Virus record (IMG/VR): IMGVR_UViG_3300025047_000021
Span: 1-23,457 of that record
Origin: a virus
Length of the DNA: 23,457 nt
Strand: one strand, 5' to 3'
The position numbers were made by a program, and so were the translations under genes. Within the stretch, counting starts at the first letter, position 1. Every line of letters starts with the position of its first letter. Of this stretch, positions 2,430 through 23,421 are shown one piece after another. The notes beneath the pieces were generated by a model, which saw only the letters and a list, made by a program, of their open reading frames with translations, made no database searches and had not been told where the DNA came from.

Positions 2430-3269
2430 TTATTTTTTTAATTTTTTACGTATTACCATGCCCATTATGCCTAAGCCTAAAAAGGCTAAGCTAGCCGGAG
2501 CCGGCACGTTACGATTAGAAAGCCCGACGACTATGTTGTCAAACTCGCCAGCGACACCAGAAGAAATAACACGCAAACGATCGAATGCTTCGTCAACGGT
2601 GAAGTCAATGTTCACGTAAACATTTGATTTATCAGATTCTCTGTCACCTGCTTCACCGTCAAGTGAATCTAAGATTTCTCCACCCGTGATACTTTTCACT
2701 AACGTCGCGCCTGAATAGAATTCAAATGTGTTGTATGTGTCAATTGAACCCCAGTAGAAACCAAGATAATCAATACTTGAACCGGCCAAAGAGGCTTCAA
2801 TATTACCGATGCTGGCCAAAAAGTTAGTGTAGTCAATGTCAACAAAGCTGTCTTGACCCACTGTTTCAGGCGTGGTGTAGGCGTAACAGGTATTGTCACC
2901 TGCAGGTGCCGCGGCAACATTTCGAGTCGAACCAGTACGTACGTTTAGCACGTCAGTTGAGCTAGGTTGTACAACCAGTGGCGAGTTGATCGCGCAACCC
3001 TCTGATGTTCCCGCTACGTTATAGCTTGTGTCATTGGCGCTTGGTAAACCTGGAATAGCGGTAGCCACATCAAAGGTTTCAACAAAAAAACCATCACTGA
3101 TTGCATTAATCGTGTTATCGGAATTAACGTTATCGCTTGTTTTACCGGAATTGTCAGTGGCTGTTTGGCCACCGAAACTAATTATTGCCGCGCTGATATT
3201 TTGCGATGCAGTTAGCGCTAGTAAAGCGGCTGCTGAAATGAATTTAGCTTTCTTAAATAAACGTGTCAT
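2430..3269 (-). CDS. PEP-CTERM exosortase-dependent surface protein, paralogue 2
   Basis: This 279-aa protein aligns with its downstream neighbour almost without gaps and shares long blocks: FGGQTATD, SGKTS, DGFFVETFD, GCAINSPL, RNVAAAPAGDN, CYAYTTP, DSFVDIDYTNFL, YLGFYWGS, SNVYVNI and GEFDNIVVGL. The N-terminus is a signal peptide (MTRLFKKAKFISAAALLALT, ending near NISAA). The C-terminus has the sorting layout VPAP, LAFLGLGIMGMVI, RKKLKK. GGAG stands seven bases before the ATG, which supports the start. Like its twin it should be exported and anchored by an exosortase, with both conserved Cys kept. The main differences lie in the signal peptide, the loop after residue about 95 and the tail. 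Each copy has its own promoter and terminator, so they are separate transcription units, not an operon. No exosortase gene is in view. Confidence 0.88.
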   Translation of the reverse strand: MTRLFKKAKFISAAALLALTASQNISAAIISFGGQTATDNSGKTSDNVNSDNTINAISDGFFVETFDVATAIPGLPSANDTSYNVAGTSEGCAINSPLVVQPSSTDVLNVRTGSTRNVAAAPAGDNTCYAYTTPETVGQDSFVDIDYTNFLASIGNIEASLAGSSIDYLGFYWGSIDTYNTFEFYSGATLVKSITGGEILDSLDGEAGDRESDKSNVYVNIDFTVDEAFDRLRVISSGVAGEFDNIVVGLSNRNVPAPASLAFLGLGIMGMVIRKKLKK

Positions 3270-8378: not shown

Positions 8379-8544
8379 TCCAAATTCATTAGCCAGCATA
8401 ACAATCAAAAGGAATTGGTTGTTAAATCACCGCTATCCTCACTTTATCTCAGTAAACACTTGCGCACGTCAGCGGTTTTCCCTAACATACGCGCCTGCTA
8501 AAAAGCTTGTCTGTATGTCGCTGTTTGTGATTTAAAGACGATAA

Positions 8545-8700
8545 AGCAAATGAAAAGTTTTACAGAGGTGGGTGAAGCCGGTCTCTTTAGGTGCACAGCA
8601 CCGCCCGGCTGAATGGCCGGACATGGATGTACGGACTGGGTGCCGATCATCATGGATGTGTTAACTCTGCGATAGATTCGAAGAGCAAATGAAAAGTTTT
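8545..8700 (+). repeat. Duplicated tRNA-Ser leader and 5' remnant, with structured spacer
   Basis: AGCAAATGAAAAGTTTT occurs at 8545-8561 and again at 8684-8700, just before the tRNA. After the first copy come ACAGAGGTGGGTGA, which resembles the tRNA start GGAGAGGTGGCTGA, so this is a degenerate tRNA 5' end that soon diverges. The spacer holds two perfect 5-bp hairpins (8590-8602 and 8605-8620), an ACATGGATGT near-palindrome (8621-8630) and a second CATGGATGT at 8651. It looks like a small dispersed element or a decayed tandem tRNA. The rest of the gene-free stretch 8379-8544 shows nothing I can name beyond a weak 7-bp hairpin near 8400-8425. Confidence 0.55.
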
Positions 8701-8790
8701 GGAGAGGTGGCTGAGTGGCTGAAGGCGCACGCCTGGAAAGTGTGTTTAGGGTTAAACCTAACGAGGGTTCGAATCCCTCTCTCTCCGCCA
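8701..8790 (+). tRNA. tRNA-Ser (anticodon GGA)
   Basis: The 90-base sequence folds as a class II tRNA. The acceptor stem GGAGAGG pairs with TCTCTCC. The anticodon loop is CTGGAAA, reading GGA (UCC/UCU codons). The variable arm is long (GTTTAGGGTTAAACCTAAC), the T loop is GGGTTCGAATCCC, and CCA is encoded. It is very close to the E. coli serW/serX type. Protein ORFs on the opposite strand here, with the AEREGFEPS-type sequence, are the well-known tRNA-Ser translation artefact. The prophage begins directly after it, so the gene is the likely integration site. Confidence 0.97.
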
Positions 8791-8799
8791 TATACCATC

Positions 8800-13518: not shown

Positions 13519-16500
13519 CTATACTTCTGTACTCACTAGCGCTAATTCCTGCCGTGATATGTTTTGTGTGGCGTGGTAACGGCTCTGGCTTGTTATTACA
13601 GCCCTGTATTCAAAGTCCTGCGTTGAGCTGTCAGTGTCCGTATAGGTATAAGAGCCTCCGAGGAATTCAAACGAACGAACGCCAAGCCCTTCGCCCCGCA
13701 TATCGATAAACGTAGCCTCACCAGATAAATTTTGAGTAACACCAACTTGAGTAAAAGAGCTGCTGCCGTTTTTGGCTCGGTAGAGCTTTAACGTTGCGCT
13801 GTTTGGGTAGCTGCTTGGCGGGTTTCCGCTGTAATTATAATCGACGTAATTACCGTTCATGCTGAACGTAACGACAACTTTTTTAGGATTCCCATTTGTT
13901 CCAAATACCCCAGTTTCTACCGAAGGATTAGCTGCTTTTGTTGTTGACGTTCTGCCGGCATAAAGCACGCCGCCTGATAAGCCGCCGCCGAAGTATGATC
14001 CGCCCGTCGTGTCATACCAAATCGATGCATTGGCTTTTGTGCAGTAACTAAGATTAGGATCGCCGCCAGAGGTTAAGTTTTTTGGCCCGTACCAATACCA
14101 AAGCCCCTCAGAACCGAAGCCGTTCGGACGCTTCACTTCCATGAAGTTACCCCCGATTGTATCCATGCTGGCAGAGCGCAAATTGCCTGTGAATTCACCA
14201 TCAGCGTAAATTGTCATGCGGTTCGTAGAGGCATTAACGCTCATTAACGTTGTGCCATTTGTTGCAACGATACGAATAGAGTTACCCACAAACGTCAGGA
14301 CACTTTGCGTGCTGCTGCCCTTAACGAAAACACCGGTGATGCGGCCGTCATTGTTAACTGCGAATTGTATCTCGCCTGAGACCTGCCCGAGCTCGTCTTC
14401 AATCGCTTCAAAGTATGAATAAATAGACAGATTATTGCCCAGTGAGCCGGTTACTTTTACCTCGCTAAACGCTTGCGCGAATGCGGCACCCTGCACCCAA
14501 TTACCTGAGCTGTTTTCATAACCAATTTGGGCGTTTTTAAACGATGTAATTTGAGACGCTACCGAGCTATTACCAACCCGAGCCGAAACGGTGTTTAAAT
14601 CGCTGGCTCTCGCTGCGCCGGCACTGCTGAATAGTTCGCTTTGTTTCACGTAGCTTGCAAGCGAGTTATTAAATGTGCTAGTTAGCTGCTGGCCTAACTG
14701 AATTCGCGCGTCTTCCTCGTCAGCTATCAGGCTTAATGCGTTGTCGGCCTTTGCTGTCGCTGCGACTGTGGCAACTCTGCGCTGCTCAATATCGTCAATG
14801 CGGGCTTGCGTCTCTGTTGCTATCAAGCTCAGCGCATTTACAGCTTTAGCATCTACGGCGGCAGTGGCCACACGTCGTTGTTCAATATCATCGATACGTG
14901 CCTGTTCTTCGTCTGCAATTAACTGCAGAGCATTGTCGGCTTTCGCATCTACGGCTGCAGTGGCAACCCGTCTTGTTTCAATGTCATCGATACGCGCTTG
15001 CGTTTCTGTGGCGATAAGCTCGAGGGAATTATCAGCTTTAGCGTCCACCGCTTCTGTGGCCAGCCGGCGCTGTGTTATATCCTCAATACGCGCTTGCTCT
15101 TCATCAGCTATTAACTGCAGTGAGTTTGTTGCTTTGGCGTCGACCGCCTCAGTGGCGATTCTGCGCTCGGTTATATCGCTGATACGCGCTTGCTCTTCCT
15201 GGGCAATCAGTATTAGGTTGTTTTCAGCTTTCGCGTTCACGTTGCCAACAGTCACGCCCAATTGCGTTAAATCGCTCGCTCGAGCTGCGCCAGCAGACGT
15301 GTACAAATCAACGGTTTTTAAATACACAGACGATAAATCACCAAACTGTGCCTGCAGCTTGCTTTCTAATATTGCTCGGCTCATGCGGTCGCTAGAGATT
15401 GCACTAAACGCCTGCGCCACTTTAGCGCTCACCAAACCCACTTCAACCCCCACAGTGGTCGTTTTTTCATCCACAATGGCTAACGCGTCATTCACCATTT
15501 GAATATCTTCAAATAGGCTAATTTGACCGGCTTCAAGCTCTTCGTTGTAATAATCCTGATCGTTCAGCCACTGCGAAAAACCGCTTAACGTATCAAGCAA
15601 GGTATTGGGTAGACTTGGCAGAGTAATACCCGCAATCACATCAGGGCGAATTTCATCAGACGTCAGCCCAATAAGATTGGGTATAACAACTTGTATCCAG
15701 TTAGGGTCAACCAAATCCCCTTCTTTTAACCGGTACCACAAATACAGCGTGTCATCCTGGCGGGTACCCACAATCGTGACGCTTTTGCCATCTGCAGCGA
15801 TTAATGCGCTATCAAAATCATCGGTAAACGAATAGCGCCATTGATATGTGGCTGAGCTGTTAGGTAACTCAGGTCCTACGATGATGACGCGCCCTGGTAA
15901 AATATCGAACTTCAAGGGGGTATTCGTTGGCGTACTTGGTAAGCCAACGTTAAAGCTGAAACTAGGTGCCGCGCTTCTTTTATCAAAGCGGTTTTCAGCG
16001 GATATCAACGCAGAATAATTACCTGCGCTTAAGTTTTTTACATCGAGCGTGGGGGAAAGTGGCGTCTCGCTATGATACCAACCGTCATCTGGGATTCTTA
16101 CCAACAGCGCTATGTATCTGCGCACCGATGATGGAGTAGGGTGTGACCAGGTCAAAAAACCTTGGCGATGACTATCGTTTGGCGTTGGCGTGTAGTTAAT
16201 ATTCTCGACGGGGGAGATATTCGTCGTGTCAGGCAGTGAAGTGTTTGCAGGAATATTAATTTCAGTGATGGTGAAATCATCTTGATATAGCTCTATGTGT
16301 TCCTCTTCTATCGCTAGAATCGTGCGGCGCTTACTCACATCAACACGATAATCTTGAACGATAAATTCTCTGTCGACTCCTGTTTGTGTGTCTACGTAAC
16401 GTAATACCGCACCTGGCACCACATCTAAACGGATCCCCTGCAGTGACACTTGACTGGTAAAGCCCGCTTGGCTTCGTTCTAACTGACGTTTCTGGAGTCG

Positions 16501-17649
16501 TTGCGCGATAGTGCTGCGATTCGTGAAGTACAGCTTTAAATTGCTATCTAATTCAGTGCCATCATCTTGGGCATAGTTGGCACCAAAGGTTACTGGCGCA
16601 TCGGTTACCTGGTATTTTAAATCTGGCTCAACGTACTCGCCACGCACCAGATTAGTTTTCTCTTTTTCAGGGCGATGAGGCTGATAATTAGGTTGTTCAA
16701 CAAAATCATCAGGCGTTAACGTGACAGTGCTAGGGCCGCCGTACATGGCTGGTTTAATATAAATTTTACCACCGGGGCGGTAGATACGCGCACCACTACT
16801 GGACAATAAATATTTAAGGCTGTCACCGGGTTTTAATGTGCTGTTTATCACACCGTTACACGTAAAGCGGCGTTCACTTTGAGTGTCACCATTGGTATCA
16901 GTGTATTCAACCACTGTGTCGCAATAGTTCGCTGTTAATGCTGCAAAATCCCATGGAATACGGCGAAGTGGAATAGGGCGATAACCGTAGTTACGGATGT
17001 AGTCATACGTACATAATATTGGGTTATCACTCCACGCCCAGGTGCTGCTATCTGTTGCACGCTGCTCACCGTCACCGCCTGCAGTTGTGTCTTTGCGCGG
17101 ATCATATACAGGCTTGCCACGCACTTTGAATTTTATTTGGTTAACGCCTGTGGGGAAAATTTCAGGGTCAATTTTCACTTTTACGTAGGCGTTAGTCAGA
17201 CCAAAACCTACGTGCTCATTCGTCCAGTCCTGTATGTACTGCACAGCTTGTGCATGGGCTGTGGTTTGGTCACCTAGATGAAATACAGCTCCAACAGCGC
17301 CGCCGAATTCAGCGGGGGTGACGCCGTCAATTTCATACACTTCAACCGATTCACATGGATGCCCTGCGAGGTGAATAGCAAAATAGTGATACTCAGTTTC
17401 TCCCTGCTCAAGTTTGCGGTACCCAATAATTTGACCGCCAACAACGGTTTCACCGTAAATGACCTTTCTTGGCTGGTTTGCCGTAGTTGAAAGCTCCTGA
17501 GCTGCTAACGGGTTTGCGCTTTCGTTGTCATAATCTGGAACGTCTGGGGATGCCATTGCAACAGCGGCTACAAATAGCGCAGCGGCAACGTAATAATACG
17601 CAGCGGAATAGGCAACTACCGCGGCTACAGCTAATACTACGGGTGGCAT
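13519..17649 (-). CDS. Host-specificity protein J / TipJ-like tail tip protein
   Basis: I start this protein at ATG 17649, which overlaps the stop of the peptidase gene as TAATG; the upstream 33 codons belong to the overlapping gene. The 1376-aa product opens with a hydrophobic Ala/Val-rich segment (residues 1-32), as many tail-tip proteins do. The conserved TipJ-like core (about 55-480) includes VIYGETVVGG, HYFAIHLAGH, NYGYRPIPL, YRPGGKIYIKPA and ERSQAGFTSQVSLQG. A fibronectin-like domain lies at about 486-566. Residues 804-963 consist of five 32-aa helical repeats, bracketed by two copies of SAGAARASDL. The C-terminal part (about 1010-1376) is a straight-fibre and beta-rich tip region. The protein should form the distal tip and contact the receptor. 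Confidence 0.88.
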   Translation of the reverse strand: MPPVVLAVAAVVAYSAAYYYVAAALFVAAVAMASPDVPDYDNESANPLAAQELSTTANQPRKVIYGETVVGGQIIGYRKLEQGETEYHYFAIHLAGHPCESVEVYEIDGVTPAEFGGAVGAVFHLGDQTTAHAQAVQYIQDWTNEHVGFGLTNAYVKVKIDPEIFPTGVNQIKFKVRGKPVYDPRKDTTAGGDGEQRATDSSTWAWSDNPILCTYDYIRNYGYRPIPLRRIPWDFAALTANYCDTVVEYTDTNGDTQSERRFTCNGVINSTLKPGDSLKYLLSSSGARIYRPGGKIYIKPAMYGGPSTVTLTPDDFVEQPNYQPHRPEKEKTNLVRGEYVEPDLKYQVTDAPVTFGANYAQDDGTELDSNLKLYFTNRSTIAQRLQKRQLERSQAGFTSQVSLQGIRLDVVPGAVLRYVDTQTGVDREFIVQDYRVDVSKRRTILAIEEEHIELYQDDFTITEINIPANTSLPDTTNISPVENINYTPTPNDSHRQGFLTWSHPTPSSVRRYIALLVRIPDDGWYHSETPLSPTLDVKNLSAGNYSALISAENRFDKRSAAPSFSFNVGLPSTPTNTPLKFDILPGRVIIVGPELPNSSATYQWRYSFTDDFDSALIAADGKSVTIVGTRQDDTLYLWYRLKEGDLVDPNWIQVVIPNLIGLTSDEIRPDVIAGITLPSLPNTLLDTLSGFSQWLNDQDYYNEELEAGQISLFEDIQMVNDALAIVDEKTTTVGVEVGLVSAKVAQAFSAISSDRMSRAILESKLQAQFGDLSSVYLKTVDLYTSAGAARASDLTQLGVTVGNVNAKAENNLILIAQEEQARISDITERRIATEAVDAKATNSLQLIADEEQARIEDITQRRLATEAVDAKADNSLELIATETQARIDDIETRRVATAAVDAKADNALQLIADEEQARIDDIEQRRVATAAVDAKAVNALSLIATETQARIDDIEQRRVATVAATAKADNALSLIADEEDARIQLGQQLTSTFNNSLASYVKQSELFSSAGAARASDLNTVSARVGNSSVASQITSFKNAQIGYENSSGNWVQGAAFAQAFSEVKVTGSLGNNLSIYSYFEAIEDELGQVSGEIQFAVNNDGRITGVFVKGSSTQSVLTFVGNSIRIVATNGTTLMSVNASTNRMTIYADGEFTGNLRSASMDTIGGNFMEVKRPNGFGSEGLWYWYGPKNLTSGGDPNLSYCTKANASIWYDTTGGSYFGGGLSGGVLYAGRTSTTKAANPSVETGVFGTNGNPKKVVVTFSMNGNYVDYNYSGNPPSSYPNSATLKLYRAKNGSSSFTQVGVTQNLSGEATFIDMRGEGLGVRSFEFLGGSYTYTDTDSSTQDFEYRAVITSQSRYHATQNISRQELALVSTEV
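14665..15240 (-). repeat. 96-bp tandem repeats in the J-like gene
   Basis: Five full 96-base copies (14761-15240) and a sixth that diverges after ARI (14665-14760) are in perfect phase. The motif encoding QARIDDI or EARI recurs at 14702, 14798, 14894, 14990, 15086 and 15182. Each unit encodes 32 residues of the type DAKADNALQLIADEEQARI followed by DDIEQRRVATAAV, with a strong helical, coiled-coil character. Copies alternate between IADEEQARI and IATETQARI, pointing to duplication of a 192-base pair of units. Confidence 0.9.
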
Positions 17650-18071
17650 TAAATGTCCTCTCTCATGTTTGTTAGTTTCCAGCAGCCCTTTGCCTGAGAA
17701 ATCGGCAATGAAACTAAGCCGGCTGGCGATACAGCCCACACTTTGCAACTTTGTACTACGCCCACGGCATCACCCAATTCAGTATCAATTAAAACCAAGT
17801 CGCCATTTTCAGCGTTTAAACGGGGTTTAATCGCTCCAAAAACCTGTGTAAATGCCGTTTTAATATCACCGCCGCCAATCTTTTTGAGCGCTTTTAACGC
17901 GCCAAGCTCTGTGGTGTATAAGTCACGATACTGCCAACCTGGATCAACTCCCTTTACGGCAAGAACGGAATTGCATGCAAACAAGCAGCAATCGTTCTTG
18001 CCCCAGACGAAAGGCAGTCCTTGCCAGGCATGTAAAAAGTCGATGAGTGCTTTTTCTTCTTCTGGTTTCAT
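17649..18071 (-). CDS. NlpC/P60-like tail peptidase (DUF6950-like)
   Basis: This 140-aa protein has the layout of small tail-associated cysteine peptidases that help the tail cross the cell wall. FLHAWQGLPFVWGKNDCCLF (about 13-32) holds the expected catalytic Cys in NDCC. GALKALKKIGGGD and NGDLVLIDTELGDAVGVVQ follow. The usual histidine after the second block is not obvious (AVGVVQ rather than HVGIV), as is the case for the DUF6950 group as I remember it, so activity is uncertain. It sits between a hub-like protein and J, where lambda carries gpK and gene transfer agents carry gp14. It overlaps both neighbours (ATGA upstream, TAATG downstream), so its production should be tightly coupled to theirs. 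Confidence 0.8.
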   Translation of the reverse strand: MKPEEEKALIDFLHAWQGLPFVWGKNDCCLFACNSVLAVKGVDPGWQYRDLYTTELGALKALKKIGGGDIKTAFTQVFGAIKPRLNAENGDLVLIDTELGDAVGVVQSCKVWAVSPAGLVSLPISQAKGCWKLTNMREDI

Positions 18072-19305: not shown

Positions 19306-21735
19306 CTATGCAGCCCTTCCGCTTAGCATTTGTGCACGCATACCGTTATTCGAGAAATCCCGGCGCAACTCACCATCGAATTCCTTCAGGGCGTTATTCA
19401 CTTGTTGGTTAATTTTGTCTTCCATGCCTGGCGTAGCGTTTGTCGCGTCGATATTAATCTGAGGATTAAAGTTATAAACGTTACCCGCTGCACTAGCGCC
19501 ACCACTGGTGTTCTCAACGACTTGCTCGAAGTTTTCGCGCTGCTTGGGGTTCAATACCATTTCGTCTTTGCGTAATAGGTATGTGCCTTCATTTGAATTA
19601 GGTACACGGGCTAAGCCGTCGTGAGCTTGGCCTTGGTATTGAGCCCCCTTAAGCGTGGATACTAAGCTGGCACCTGTCGCTGCAGCTTGAGCCATCGCGG
19701 GAATGTTCGCAGGGAACGGCAATGCACTGGCGTTACTGATAGCCGTTGTAAGGTTTAATATGCCTTGAGCAATTGCAAACCCCTTTTGTACTGCATACAT
19801 AGCTTTGTATGCAGTACTTTGTTCGCCGCCAAATGTTTTCGCTAACCCCGCCAAGCCGCTAAATATTTGCTGGCTGCTGGTTAGCATGATGTTCATGCGG
19901 GCGTTGTTGTAAGCCTGCAGATCAGTAAAATATTTCTGATTCGCAGATAAGCTGAGCTGGATGAATTCGTCTTCCTGCAATTTACCCTGAGCATAAGCGC
20001 CGGCTAACATTGCATGCTTTTGTTCAAGATGAGTTGCAATTAACTCTTCTTGAGACATCAAGCTTTCGCGTAGCTTTTCTAATTCATTGTCAGAAACAGG
20101 GGCGCCGGTCTCGCCAGTGCTTTCAGTGTCTTTATTTACACCGAACTGCCCTAGGTCAAATGACTCATCATTGGCTGCTGATTTTTTACGTGCTTCACCC
20201 AATGCCGTGGCAGCAGCTATTTGCGCTGTAAAACTACTTAGTGACGCTTGGCGCTCATCAAAAATATCTTGTAGGGTTGATTCACGCGCATTGCGCGAAA
20301 TATCGACTTGTTGGTTAGCAGAGTCGAGATACCCTTTTACTAATGAATCTCGTGTTTGGCGAGCTACAGCCAGCTGATTGTCGCGCTCCTGTGCATAAGC
20401 GTTAGTTACGCCTTTAGCCACGGCATCCGCTTGAGATAGGGCGGCACTCACATCGAATGAATCACCATCAAACGGGTTGATAAGATCTAGTATTTCCTCA
20501 CCGTAAATACCAAGTTCGTTAACTACAGCGGTTAATTCTGCACTGATAACGTTAGCAAAAGACTTTAAGTAGATTTTTGCGACATCAGGTAAGTAGGCTA
20601 ACTGCGTACCGATAACCTGCCCGAAAGCAACCGCATGAGCGCTGCCCACATCAATTGCACTGGCTAGTTCAACGGTCAGTACTTTAATCATCGCGCGCAC
20701 GTTGGCAGGATATTGCTTAAGCGAATTGAGCAACAAGTTTTTATAAGCGTTGTCGTATTCACCCATTAACGTGAACAAGCTTTCTAATTCAGGTGGTATG
20801 TGAGTAGCAACTGTATCAATAGCGGTTGTTACATCATCAGCCCAGCCTTCCCACTGCCCAGCAAGCGCATCTAGATACCCGCCAAGTTGACCGCTGGCGA
20901 TGATATTTGTTAACTCATCAATTGCACCGGCAACGCCGCGCACACCCTCTTGCATCAGCTCACTAACACCAGCCTCAGCAATGGTGAATTTCAAGCCGTC
21001 CCAGCTATCACCAAGATTGCTAATTGCTCCGTCAAGCGTGGCGGCTTGACGTGCCATCGCGCCGCCAAATTGTGTTTCACCTAAACTTTGTAAAAAGCCT
21101 TCAATTGCTTGAGCATTATTTTCGACTTCGGTTTTCACCCCGCGAAAGGTAAACGCGATGGTGTCACCTTGGTTTTTGGCTTTAATACCAAATTCTTTTA
21201 GGCGCTCAAATTCTGCAACACTGGCATCTGCTACGGCTTCAATAAACTGATCTAAACTTTTGCCCATTGCACTGGCCGTATTCATGTAGCTGCGCAAGGC
21301 TTCTTGGCTTGGGTTTAAGCCTAGGTTGGTTAACTTAATAAAAGCGGTGGTTATTTCTTCTACAGAATAAGGTGTTGTTGATGCAATTCGCTGTATTTCA
21401 CGAAAGACCTTATTTGCGTTCTCTGCGCTACCTGTGGCGGTCACAAGTGACGCATTGAGAATTTCAAAACGGCGAGTGGTATCAATCAGCCCTTTGATTA
21501 ATGTTGTTGATATAAACGTTGTAATTAGAGCAGGGCCGAGTACTGAAAGCTTACTCAGTAGCTTACCGCCTGCTACCTCCATAGCGGTTATATTGCTACT
21601 GGATTTCTTGGCTTTGTTTCCTGCAACAGTAGTAGCATTACCAAACTCTACGACTTTCCCTTTCGCATTAGTCAGCTGGCCGACTAAGCCTGAGCCGTCA
21701 GCCTTTAGTTTTATACCTACTACAATATCGCTCAT
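19306..21735 (-). CDS. Tail length tape measure protein
   Basis: The tape measure sets tail length and is threaded through the tube. I start at ATG 21735 (MSDIVVGIKLKADG), four bases after the stop of the chaperone fusion; the upstream codons to 21789 overlap that gene and are unlikely. The 809-aa protein has the conserved tape-measure N-terminal domain (about 80-280: RRFEILNASLVTATGSAENA, TTPYSVEEITTAFIKLTNLG, AVADASVAEFERLKEFGI, GAISNLGDSWDGLK). A hydrophobic segment lies at about 60-82. Long Ala-rich helices follow. A TMP-typical C-terminus includes YKAMYAVQKGFAIAQGILN and LLRKDEMVLNPKQ. At about 0.15 nm per residue the tail would be near 120 nm. An 11-bp perfect inverted repeat lies inside the coding sequence at 19788-19817. 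Confidence 0.92.
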   Translation of the reverse strand: MSDIVVGIKLKADGSGLVGQLTNAKGKVVEFGNATTVAGNKAKKSSSNITAMEVAGGKLLSKLSVLGPALITTFISTTLIKGLIDTTRRFEILNASLVTATGSAENANKVFREIQRIASTTPYSVEEITTAFIKLTNLGLNPSQEALRSYMNTASAMGKSLDQFIEAVADASVAEFERLKEFGIKAKNQGDTIAFTFRGVKTEVENNAQAIEGFLQSLGETQFGGAMARQAATLDGAISNLGDSWDGLKFTIAEAGVSELMQEGVRGVAGAIDELTNIIASGQLGGYLDALAGQWEGWADDVTTAIDTVATHIPPELESLFTLMGEYDNAYKNLLLNSLKQYPANVRAMIKVLTVELASAIDVGSAHAVAFGQVIGTQLAYLPDVAKIYLKSFANVISAELTAVVNELGIYGEEILDLINPFDGDSFDVSAALSQADAVAKGVTNAYAQERDNQLAVARQTRDSLVKGYLDSANQQVDISRNARESTLQDIFDERQASLSSFTAQIAAATALGEARKKSAANDESFDLGQFGVNKDTESTGETGAPVSDNELEKLRESLMSQEELIATHLEQKHAMLAGAYAQGKLQEDEFIQLSLSANQKYFTDLQAYNNARMNIMLTSSQQIFSGLAGLAKTFGGEQSTAYKAMYAVQKGFAIAQGILNLTTAISNASALPFPANIPAMAQAAATGASLVSTLKGAQYQGQAHDGLARVPNSNEGTYLLRKDEMVLNPKQRENFEQVVENTSGGASAAGNVYNFNPQINIDATNATPGMEDKINQQVNNALKEFDGELRRDFSNNGMRAQMLSGRAA

Positions 21736-21739
21736 TGCG

Positions 21740-22434
21740 TTACTTTCTCTTTGATAGCTTGCTGTTGATAGCACTGCAATATTCAGCAAACATAATTTTC
21801 AGTTTCGAATACTGCTCAGCGCTAAATTCTCTTTCCGATAGTTCCGCATCGGCTTTAATTGACATCACATCGAGACGAGCACAGTAGTCACCAACCCAAA
21901 TCAACATATTTGCCACTTCTAAAAACCACTCTACTGTGGGCCAGTTTTCCTCAAGCACCTCAAACGTATCGTCTGGTTTAAACCTGCTTAGGTGCTGCTG
22001 AATAACAACATCAGATGCGCCCATTTCTCGCATCTGAATGGTTAATTCCTCTATTTCTTCTTGCGGGATTTCCGGACCGAACGCCCAGAAGCGAGCGGCC
22101 CCTTCGAGTTTTTTGACGCAATACCTGCGGACGCTTCGTGATATGCATTGATAAAACCGAGACGTACAAATCCAGCACTTGCAAATAGGTGACGTTTGTT
22201 TTCGCTGTTGAATGGTAGGGGGGCGCCGTCCTCACCTTGAATGTCGTCCCCGAAACCAACCACTACTCGGTCAAGAAATTTCAGGTCGTCTTTCATTAGT
22301 GAGTTGTAATCATCCTGAGGAATAATTTCGAACTTAGCGGTACAAGTATGTTCTTGAACTTTGCCCCCATCGACGGGCATTGCCAATATGACAGGCCATG
22401 TCACAACGCGGGTTTTGGTTAACTGAAAAGCCAT
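21740..22434 (-). CDS. Tail assembly chaperone fusion (G-T type), made by -1 frameshift
   Basis: In the -1 frame the sequence after the slippery site at 22108-22114 reads without stop as KLEGAARFWAFGPEI, QEEIEELTIQMREMG, LSRFKPDDTFEVLEENWPTV and on to TAA at 21740. The coding look starts well before the first ATG of this frame (22033), so a separate gene from that ATG would lose clearly protein-like sequence. The predicted fusion has 109 residues from the upstream frame and 122 from the second, 231 in total. As in lambda gpG/gpGT, the long form would coat and hold the tape measure while the short form recruits tube subunits. The tape-measure gene starts four bases later. Confidence 0.8.
22051..22434 (-). 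CDS. Tail assembly chaperone, short form (G type)
   Basis: Ribosomes that do not shift make this 127-aa form, which ends at TAG 22051 with a basic tail (GRSVRKSRKKK). The body (MAFQLTKTRVVTWPVILAMP, KFEIIPQDDYNSLM, FLDRVVVGFGDDIQ, SENKRHLFASAGFVRLGFIN, AYHEASAG) follows the pattern of siphovirus G-type chaperones located between the major tail protein and the tape measure. AAAGG precedes the ATG at 22434. It is about 85 bases behind the tail-tube gene, with hairpins in that spacer. It is not part of the finished virion in the related phages. Confidence 0.8.
   Translation of the reverse strand: MAFQLTKTRVVTWPVILAMPVDGGKVQEHTCTAKFEIIPQDDYNSLMKDDLKFLDRVVVGFGDDIQGEDGAPLPFNSENKRHLFASAGFVRLGFINAYHEASAGIASKNSKGPLASGRSVRKSRKKK
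22074..22114 (-). promoter_or_regulatory. Programmed -1 frameshift site
   Basis: The minus strand carries the slippery heptamer A AAA AAC (22114-22108) in the right phase for the upstream frame (TCA AAA AAC). After a six-base spacer a possible stem follows: GGGCCG (22101-22096) with CGGTCC (22079-22074), one G-U pair, loop of 16. The heptamer is one of the most efficient known -1 slippery sequences. The stem is a hypothesis. Confidence 0.75.
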
Positions 22435-22518: not shown

Positions 22519-23421
22519 TTATTGGGTAACTAGCTTTGAGTCGTTGCCGCGTATTTCGCGCAAACCAAGCTCCCACATTTTTTTACCTTTATATTCACCT
22601 GGTGCCACTGAGAGGATTTGCACGCCAGTTGAAACCTGCTTGAATATATTTGCGGTATCCTTGCCGTGAGTAAATTCGTACGGCAGTAATACATTAGAAC
22701 CGGCAACTGCGAACGGGTCGAACGTGTCTAGCGTGGGCGCTTCAATGATCACTTTGCCTTCCGCTACCCAGTCATCAATGAAGATTTGCTTCAGTTCTGT
22801 GCCTTCGTCGTACTCAATGGTGTTGTTCTGGGCCATTTCGAACTCAACAGCGTTGAATAACTGTCCGTCCAGACTAAAACTGGTATTCGCTTGGCTGACA
22901 TCCACAGGCATTTGGTATGCACTAAAGTCACCGGCGGGAATGGCCCCTGACACTGTGCCGCCATAAATGCCTGACATTTCAAAGTTCAGGTACGCCAACT
23001 CGCCAATTTTTGCTGATGTCGTGAGCGTTGCTTTGCCTGCAAGAAGGATGTGGTACATGCCTTCCCAGTGAAAATAACAACAGCCATCTAACTCGTCGGC
23101 TGCGTTAAGTACTCGGTTATGACTAACTTCTGTTGCAACATCTGTCACTGAATCGTAACCACCCATGGCAATGACTGGGGCAAACGCGACTGGGGTATTT
23201 ACTGAGCCACTGCCGGTGATTTCGACACTGCCCGAAATTTTAATCATTTCGCCTGTGTGGATAATGGGCTGGCCACCGTTTTTACCATCGTCTAAGTCAC
23301 GGCTGATGGTCTCTGTTATCCATGGCTCAATGGACAGGCCTTTGGTTTGGATGGCTGAAGGTGTCGCGCCATTTAAAATGTAGTCAGTGCCCTTTGTGTC
23401 CTCTGGGCGTTTTAAGGCCAT
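22519..23421 (-). CDS. Major tail tube protein
   Basis: This 300-aa protein precedes the chaperone pair, the fixed place of the tail tube gene in siphophages. The sequence is beta-rich: HTGEMIKISGSVEITGSGSV, VAFAPVIAMGGYD, KATLTTSAKIGELAYLNFEM, GTVSGAIPAGDFSAY and a C-terminal domain KVIIEAPTLDTFDP to GLREIRGNDS. The length is above the lambda gpV range (246 aa). The start at 23421 is the first Met, but the frame stays open upstream to the window edge (KSKRRFLQ just before) and the ribosome binding site is weak, so the true start could lie outside. In another frame a gene could end at 23412, overlapping this start. Confidence 0.75.
   Translation of the reverse strand: MALKRPEDTKGTDYILNGATPSAIQTKGLSIEPWITETISRDLDDGKNGGQPIIHTGEMIKISGSVEITGSGSVNTPVAFAPVIAMGGYDSVTDVATEVSHNRVLNAADELDGCCYFHWEGMYHILLAGKATLTTSAKIGELAYLNFEMSGIYGGTVSGAIPAGDFSAYQMPVDVSQANTSFSLDGQLFNAVEFEMAQNNTIEYDEGTELKQIFIDDWVAEGKVIIEAPTLDTFDPFAVAGSNVLLPYEFTHGKDTANIFKQVSTGVQILSVAPGEYKGKKMWELGLREIRGNDSKLVTQ

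Follow-up and report, generated by a model that had tools for sequence, protein, structure and literature searches.

Two small overlapping open reading frames (ORFs) among the tail genes of a virus raise the question of whether they are unrelated genes or one gene with two products. The frames lie on the minus strand of IMG/VR record IMGVR_UViG_3300025047_000021, of which positions 1 to 23,457 were analysed (the window, 23,457 nucleotides). A previous sequence-only reading had proposed that a −1 frameshift at the heptamer A AAA AAC joins them, as in the G and G-T tail assembly chaperones of lambda-like phages. Comparison with relatives strongly supports this programmed frameshift, and indicates that the locus is almost certainly a tail-chaperone gene of the G/G-T type; the annotation of the window is corrected to one gene with two products, instead of two unrelated small ORFs. 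Frameshifting of this kind is already well known. The part that most deserves the attention of specialists is a family-wide stop codon adjoining the heptamer, together with its loss in the clade of the window.

The two frames and the probable slip site

ORF1 (22051..22434, minus strand) has 127 codons followed by a TAG stop and encodes a putative G-like tail assembly chaperone of 127 residues. The slippery heptamer (22108..22114, minus strand) reads A AAA AAC, in the X XXY YYZ phase, because position 22114 is a third codon position in the frame that begins at 22434. The −1 frame runs open from 22231 and ends with the stop codon at 21742-21740 (minus strand). Its part after the predicted shift, ORF2 (21740..22108, minus strand), comprises 122 residues and the stop, and the computed translation of the joined frames has 231 residues. 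The first ATG of the −1 frame (22031..22033, minus strand) is the likely choice of a gene caller and probably an internal Met codon; the −1 frame already codes ahead of it, where it reads LEGAARFWAFGPEIPQEEIEELTIQ. A recheck of frames and heptamer found all the coordinates of the sequence-only reading correct, including the phase of the heptamer, the −1 frame open from well before it to 21740, the products of 127 and 231 residues and the gene-caller start at 22033.

In the proposed mechanism, most ribosomes would translate ORF1 to its stop, yielding the G-like protein of 127 residues. We infer that a minority slips back one base on the heptamer, where Lys-AAA and Asn-AAC would re-pair as AAA AAA, and goes on in the −1 frame with the codons CTC GAA GGG to give the 231-residue G-T fusion. 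By analogy with phage lambda, the G part may bind the tape measure protein and the T part may recruit the tail tube protein, and the ratio of the G and G-T forms would matter for tail assembly.

The heptamer is not a rare word in the window, where AAAAAAC occurs 12 times against 9.4 expected. Its rarity was dropped as evidence, and the case must therefore rest on comparison with relatives. The claim of the sequence-only reading that this site is stronger than that of lambda found no support: in E. coli, shifts occur far less readily on A_AAA_AAC than on A_AAA_AAG, and the lambda heptamer, G_GGA_AAG, is itself highly shift-prone (PMC5009743). Another site, T TTT TTC, has been proposed for the Mu-like phages of the D3112 group of P. 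aeruginosa (PMC4378225).

ORF1 matches phrog_569 (E 3e-18) and has relatives of 54% identity at the same place, and ORF2, the putative T-like domain of the DUF1799 family, matches phrog_680 (E 2e-10). The gp15/gp16 pair of E. coli phage HK578 belongs to phrog_569/phrog_680 and to the Pfam families Phage_TAC_4/DUF1799; the proteins of HK578 and of Synechococcus phage S-CBS1 fall in the same two PHROG families as those of the window and reach the Pfam cut-offs. By these family matches, the phrog_569/phrog_680 pair is the Phage_TAC_4/DUF1799 pair, which in some phages is annotated as a frameshift product, with a joined coding sequence in Smarc2, Sushi and Scapp.

Structures predicted with AlphaFold2 had a predicted local distance difference test (pLDDT) score of 79 for ORF1 and 91 for ORF2. 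In BFVD, a library of predicted structures, the ORF1 model matched known tape measure chaperones (best named E 1.9e-4), both forms of Scapp included. The models of ORF1 and ORF2 each matched the 236-residue annotated frameshift product of Scapp (E about 2e-2 each, probability 1.00); by E-value the match of ORF2 to this long form was weak (2.5e-2), and that to the chaperone of Loki weaker still. Sequence and fold searches of the PDB returned chance matches only, and none for ORF1.

Conservation of the heptamer and of the −1 frame

The significance of the heptamer lies, as the aligned sequences indicate, in its conservation. In 11 viral contigs with relatives of ORF1 (100 to 53% identity) it occupies the identical codon without exception, and the −1 product begins KKLEGAARFWAFGP or KKLEGAARHWAVGP; at the equivalent site all close relatives carry a heptamer in phase, either A AAA AAC or G GGA AAC. 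Rhodobacter phage RC1, Rhodovulum phage RS1, Vibrio phage vB-Vv-ZX4290 and S-CBS1 carry one of these two heptamers at the homologous place, with TGA following at once. ORF1 alone, used as a query against genome contigs, gave no match. A scan of viral contigs by the ORF2 profile alone, in which the heptamer was not used, found 30 loci, and the in-phase heptamer was present in all 25 that were looked at; in one of these, L027, an additional A puts both frames into one. An ORF2 of the family, used as a query, led to eleven named phages (HK578, Smarc2, MED16, phiES15 and others), all of which have the heptamer with an adjacent stop, and ACG-M12, among four more distant phages, has A AAA AAC TAA.

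The pattern of substitutions switches frame at the heptamer. Between the window and its sister clade, changes before the heptamer number 15/17/35 by codon position of the 0 frame, mostly at position 3; in the 75 bases past it they number 7/4/12 by position of the −1 frame, again mostly at position 3, and other distant pairs show a similar leaning. The stretch from the heptamer to ATG 22033 is therefore selected mainly in the −1 frame. Moreover, residues L1 and A4 of the −1 product, just past the slip, are invariant in a set of seven members chosen without the heptamer pattern.

These data bear on the explanation that the locus holds two separate genes, the second of them starting at ATG 22033, where ribosomes would reinitiate after ORF1 or initiate internally. 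In its favour, the nearest relatives also have Met at this ATG, the sequence AGAGGA precedes the ATG by 13 nt, and gene callers have annotated short second ORFs in relatives. However, AGAGGA is absent from the sister clade, and the 25 residues of the −1 frame ahead of the ATG are conserved back to the heptamer. In addition, helix 1 (residues 2-10) and most of helix 2 (16-28) of the ORF2 model are encoded ahead of ATG 22033, so a gene-finder frame would lose them from a domain modelled with high pLDDT. Most far relatives lack any possible start codon (ATG, GTG or TTG) from the slip up to the conserved AAxxWA segment. Homologues thus keep the heptamer and the upstream −1 frame, and share no start codon ahead of the conserved segment that would serve as a normal start for the second frame, so that the check by which the sequence-only reading could have been refuted spoke for it; two separate genes are very unlikely.

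The heptamer variants also bear on whether transcriptional slippage on the A run, and not ribosomal slippage, joins the frames. The run is A6 in the window and A8-A9 in the Vibrio relatives, and the single extra A of L027 fuses the frames at the DNA level. Many relatives, however, have G GGA AAC at the equivalent position, a homopolymer too short for polymerase slippage, and the exact X XXY YYZ phase and the stop directly past the site in most relatives further disfavour this explanation, to which we give scarcely any credence. The fused frame of L027 could also point to a once single gene that an indel or sequencing error has split in the present record, but the split is also found in L001 and L002 (identical in protein) and in diverged relatives, and is the pattern of the whole family, which leaves this explanation with next to no probability. 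Ribosomal frameshifting at the conserved heptamer is the reading retained.

In L027 itself (IMGVR_UViG_2675903252_000002, near 2357) the extra A yields a single frame of 250 codons, while the very similar L028 is split; the single frame is either a true fusion or a sequencing error.

The adjoining stop codon and the flanking elements

Loci were also collected by a pattern consisting of the heptamer, a T, free bases and the fixed bases of the AAxxWA codons, in which the codon past the heptamer was left free except for its leading T. After a hidden Markov model check of the −1 product and a requirement for an open 0 frame, at least 317 non-redundant loci were kept. All counts of stop adjacency given here are among the matches listed and come from loci that are phylogenetically non-independent, and are therefore descriptive figures only.

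A 0-frame stop directly at the heptamer was found in 292 of 317 loci (92%), and all three stops are used (TGA 148, TAA 113, TAG 31). Every locus with G GGA AAC has it (115/115). Judged by the CTN codons of the loci themselves, about 54.6 stops would be expected among 304 (about 18%), and 150.7 given each locus's own next base, against 279 observed. When the listed matches were clustered at 50% identity, 84 of the 103 clusters were all-stop, 15 had no stop and four were mixed; in 10 of the 25 exceptional loci the stop is one codon further on.

The window is one of the exceptions and does not have this 'shifty stop' form. Its codon past the heptamer is TCG, not a stop, and the 0 frame extends (22051..22107, minus strand) for 18 codons, SKGPLASGRSVRKSRKKK, to the TAG. 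The other members of its clade (L004, L005-L011, L320 and L371) likewise have no adjoining stop; codons past the heptamer in the clade are TCG, TTG or TTA, with 18-21 extra 0-frame codons. Comparison with the rest of the family indicates that this clade has lost the adjoining stop and gained a tail of 18-21 codons. What the sequence-only reading could not see from one sequence is the stop right past the heptamer of the relatives, lost in this clade.

In most of the family, slippage would compete with termination at the adjoining stop; in the clade of the window, where the stop is gone, unslipped ribosomes would add 18 codons and then stop. We tentatively suggest, as a possibility that we hold at well below even chances, that the adjoining stop is a selected part of the signal, through which release factor and slippage compete and so set the ratio of chaperones, and that the clade of the window is a natural loss with a new 0-frame tail. 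The ratio would then respond to the supply of release factor. In bacteria, frameshifting at an HIV slip site fell when a stop was placed past it, an effect that depended on release factor (PMC4373837), so such a design may exist in these phages as a large natural collection. The mean distances between slip site and 0-frame stop given with PRFect for two phage sets are 26 and 36 nt (PMC10885494), which places a distance of zero at one extreme. Literature treating stop adjacency as a family-wide rule was not found in a search that left most subscription journals outside, and its novelty is not proven. Adjoining stops in hundreds of phage chaperone genes, plus natural exceptions, make it a testable family rule.

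Sequences on both sides of the heptamer probably increase slippage. Pairing to the 3′ end of 16S rRNA, computed for 313 loci, is strongest for 8-mers whose last base lies about 6 nt ahead of the heptamer (mean energy -4.3 kcal/mol); further upstream the energy lies mostly between +1 and -1. The best pairing in this region is -4.7 against -3.8 for synonymous recoding (p about 6e-14), and about -1.3 to -2.2 elsewhere within 90 nt. As the recoded control still reaches -3.8, the Shine-Dalgarno-like effect follows for the most part from the encoded amino acids; a modest remainder does not. In the window this stretch is weak: AGGT (22123..22126, minus strand) lies 8 nt ahead of the heptamer, and the 8-mer CGCAGGTA at 22129-22122 scores -3.9 kcal/mol.

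Downstream, the stem that the sequence-only reading placed six bases after the heptamer corresponds to a predicted hairpin of 28 nt (22074..22101, minus strand; GGGGCC..CGCT/GGGC..GGTCC) starting 6 nt past it. Across the family the downstream region folds more strongly than controls recoded synonymously in the −1 frame, with a mean z of -1.46 as against -0.23 in a control region, and RNAalifold found no single helix common to the family. A stretch of 40 nt in the window has a minimum free energy of -16.8 kcal/mol (z about -1.4 against dinucleotide shuffles). Longer downstream stretches gave z near 0 or positive, and the energy of the 88-nt stretch (z +0.4 to +1.0) was dropped as evidence for the hairpin. 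The Shine-Dalgarno-like stretch and the hairpin are likely stimulators, judging from these family-wide signals.

Some points weigh against a G/G-T frameshift gene. In the window by itself the hairpin does not reach significance, and its helix is not kept in the sister clade; in E. coli, A AAA AAC slips only to a modest degree (PMC5009743); the ORF1 and ORF2 proteins of the window are below the Pfam cut-offs, with no match; and Sushi, Op1_ER4 and Scapp, three of the four more distant phages, have no X XXY YYZ heptamer.

Frameshift fusions without this heptamer are annotated in Klebsiella phage Sushi (L417, near 1360) and Serratia phage Scapp (L420, near 1381), and their overlap suggests a shorter slip, A_AAA or A_AAG, about one sense codon ahead of the stop.

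Surrounding genes and known systems

The two overlapping frames lie between the genes for tail tube and tape measure, as had been proposed. The upstream neighbour (22519..23421, minus strand), whose product gave no match in a Pfam search, is a probable tail tube gene by position and by synteny with the annotated tail tube of vB-Vv-ZX4290. The downstream neighbour (19306..21735, minus strand) encodes a tape measure protein (PF20155 TMP_3, E 5e-14; phrog_1538, E 6e-65). Further along, 13519-17652 (minus strand) encodes a large tail-tip-like protein with several near-copies of a IADEEQARIEDITQRRLATEAVDAKA-type segment in its translation.

A tRNA-Ser gene (anticodon GGA) at 8701-8790 (plus strand) has host-like genes to its left and phage tail genes to its right, and is a possible prophage attachment site; the ORF at 8498-8791 (minus strand), largely antisense to it, is probably spurious. 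At 1250-2176 and 2430-3269 (minus strand), near apparent sigma-factor and regulator genes at 2-1011, two tandem similar proteins carry C-terminal PEP-CTERM-like sorting motifs, the match of the first falling below the Pfam cut-off.

The G/G-T frameshift of phage lambda, reportedly described by Levin in 1993 and by Xu, Hendrix and Duda in 2004, shares with the window the position between tail tube and tape measure, a −1 shift shortly before the first frame ends, and a short and an extended chaperone. The heptamer of lambda is G GGA AAG, as opposed to A AAA AAC; unlike lambda, the window has an 18-codon 0-frame tail and proteins that probably belong to other sequence families. The −1 frameshift of the dnaX type combines an internal Shine-Dalgarno sequence, A AAA AAG and a hairpin. 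Its arrangement of upstream stretch, slip heptamer and downstream hairpin resembles that of the window, where the stimulators are predicted only, but the gene is unrelated and the heptamer different.

Burkholderia phage KL1, with GGGAAAC immediately ahead of TGA (PMC3483164), and Acinetobacter phage Loki, in which AAAAAAC adjoins the stop (PMC5313236), are individual examples in the literature of a tail-chaperone heptamer next to a stop, which the window lacks. The pre-tape-measure pair Phage_TAC_4 (PF08748)/DUF1799 (PF08809), exemplified by HK578 gp15/gp16, shares PHROG families 569 and 680 with the window, whose proteins, unlike members of this pair, are below the Pfam cut-offs. HK578 and Serratia phage Smarc2, with its annotated 'pre-tape measure frameshift protein', have the gene order of the window and the same heptamer at the homologous codon; their 0-frame stop touches the heptamer, whereas that of the window comes 18 codons later.
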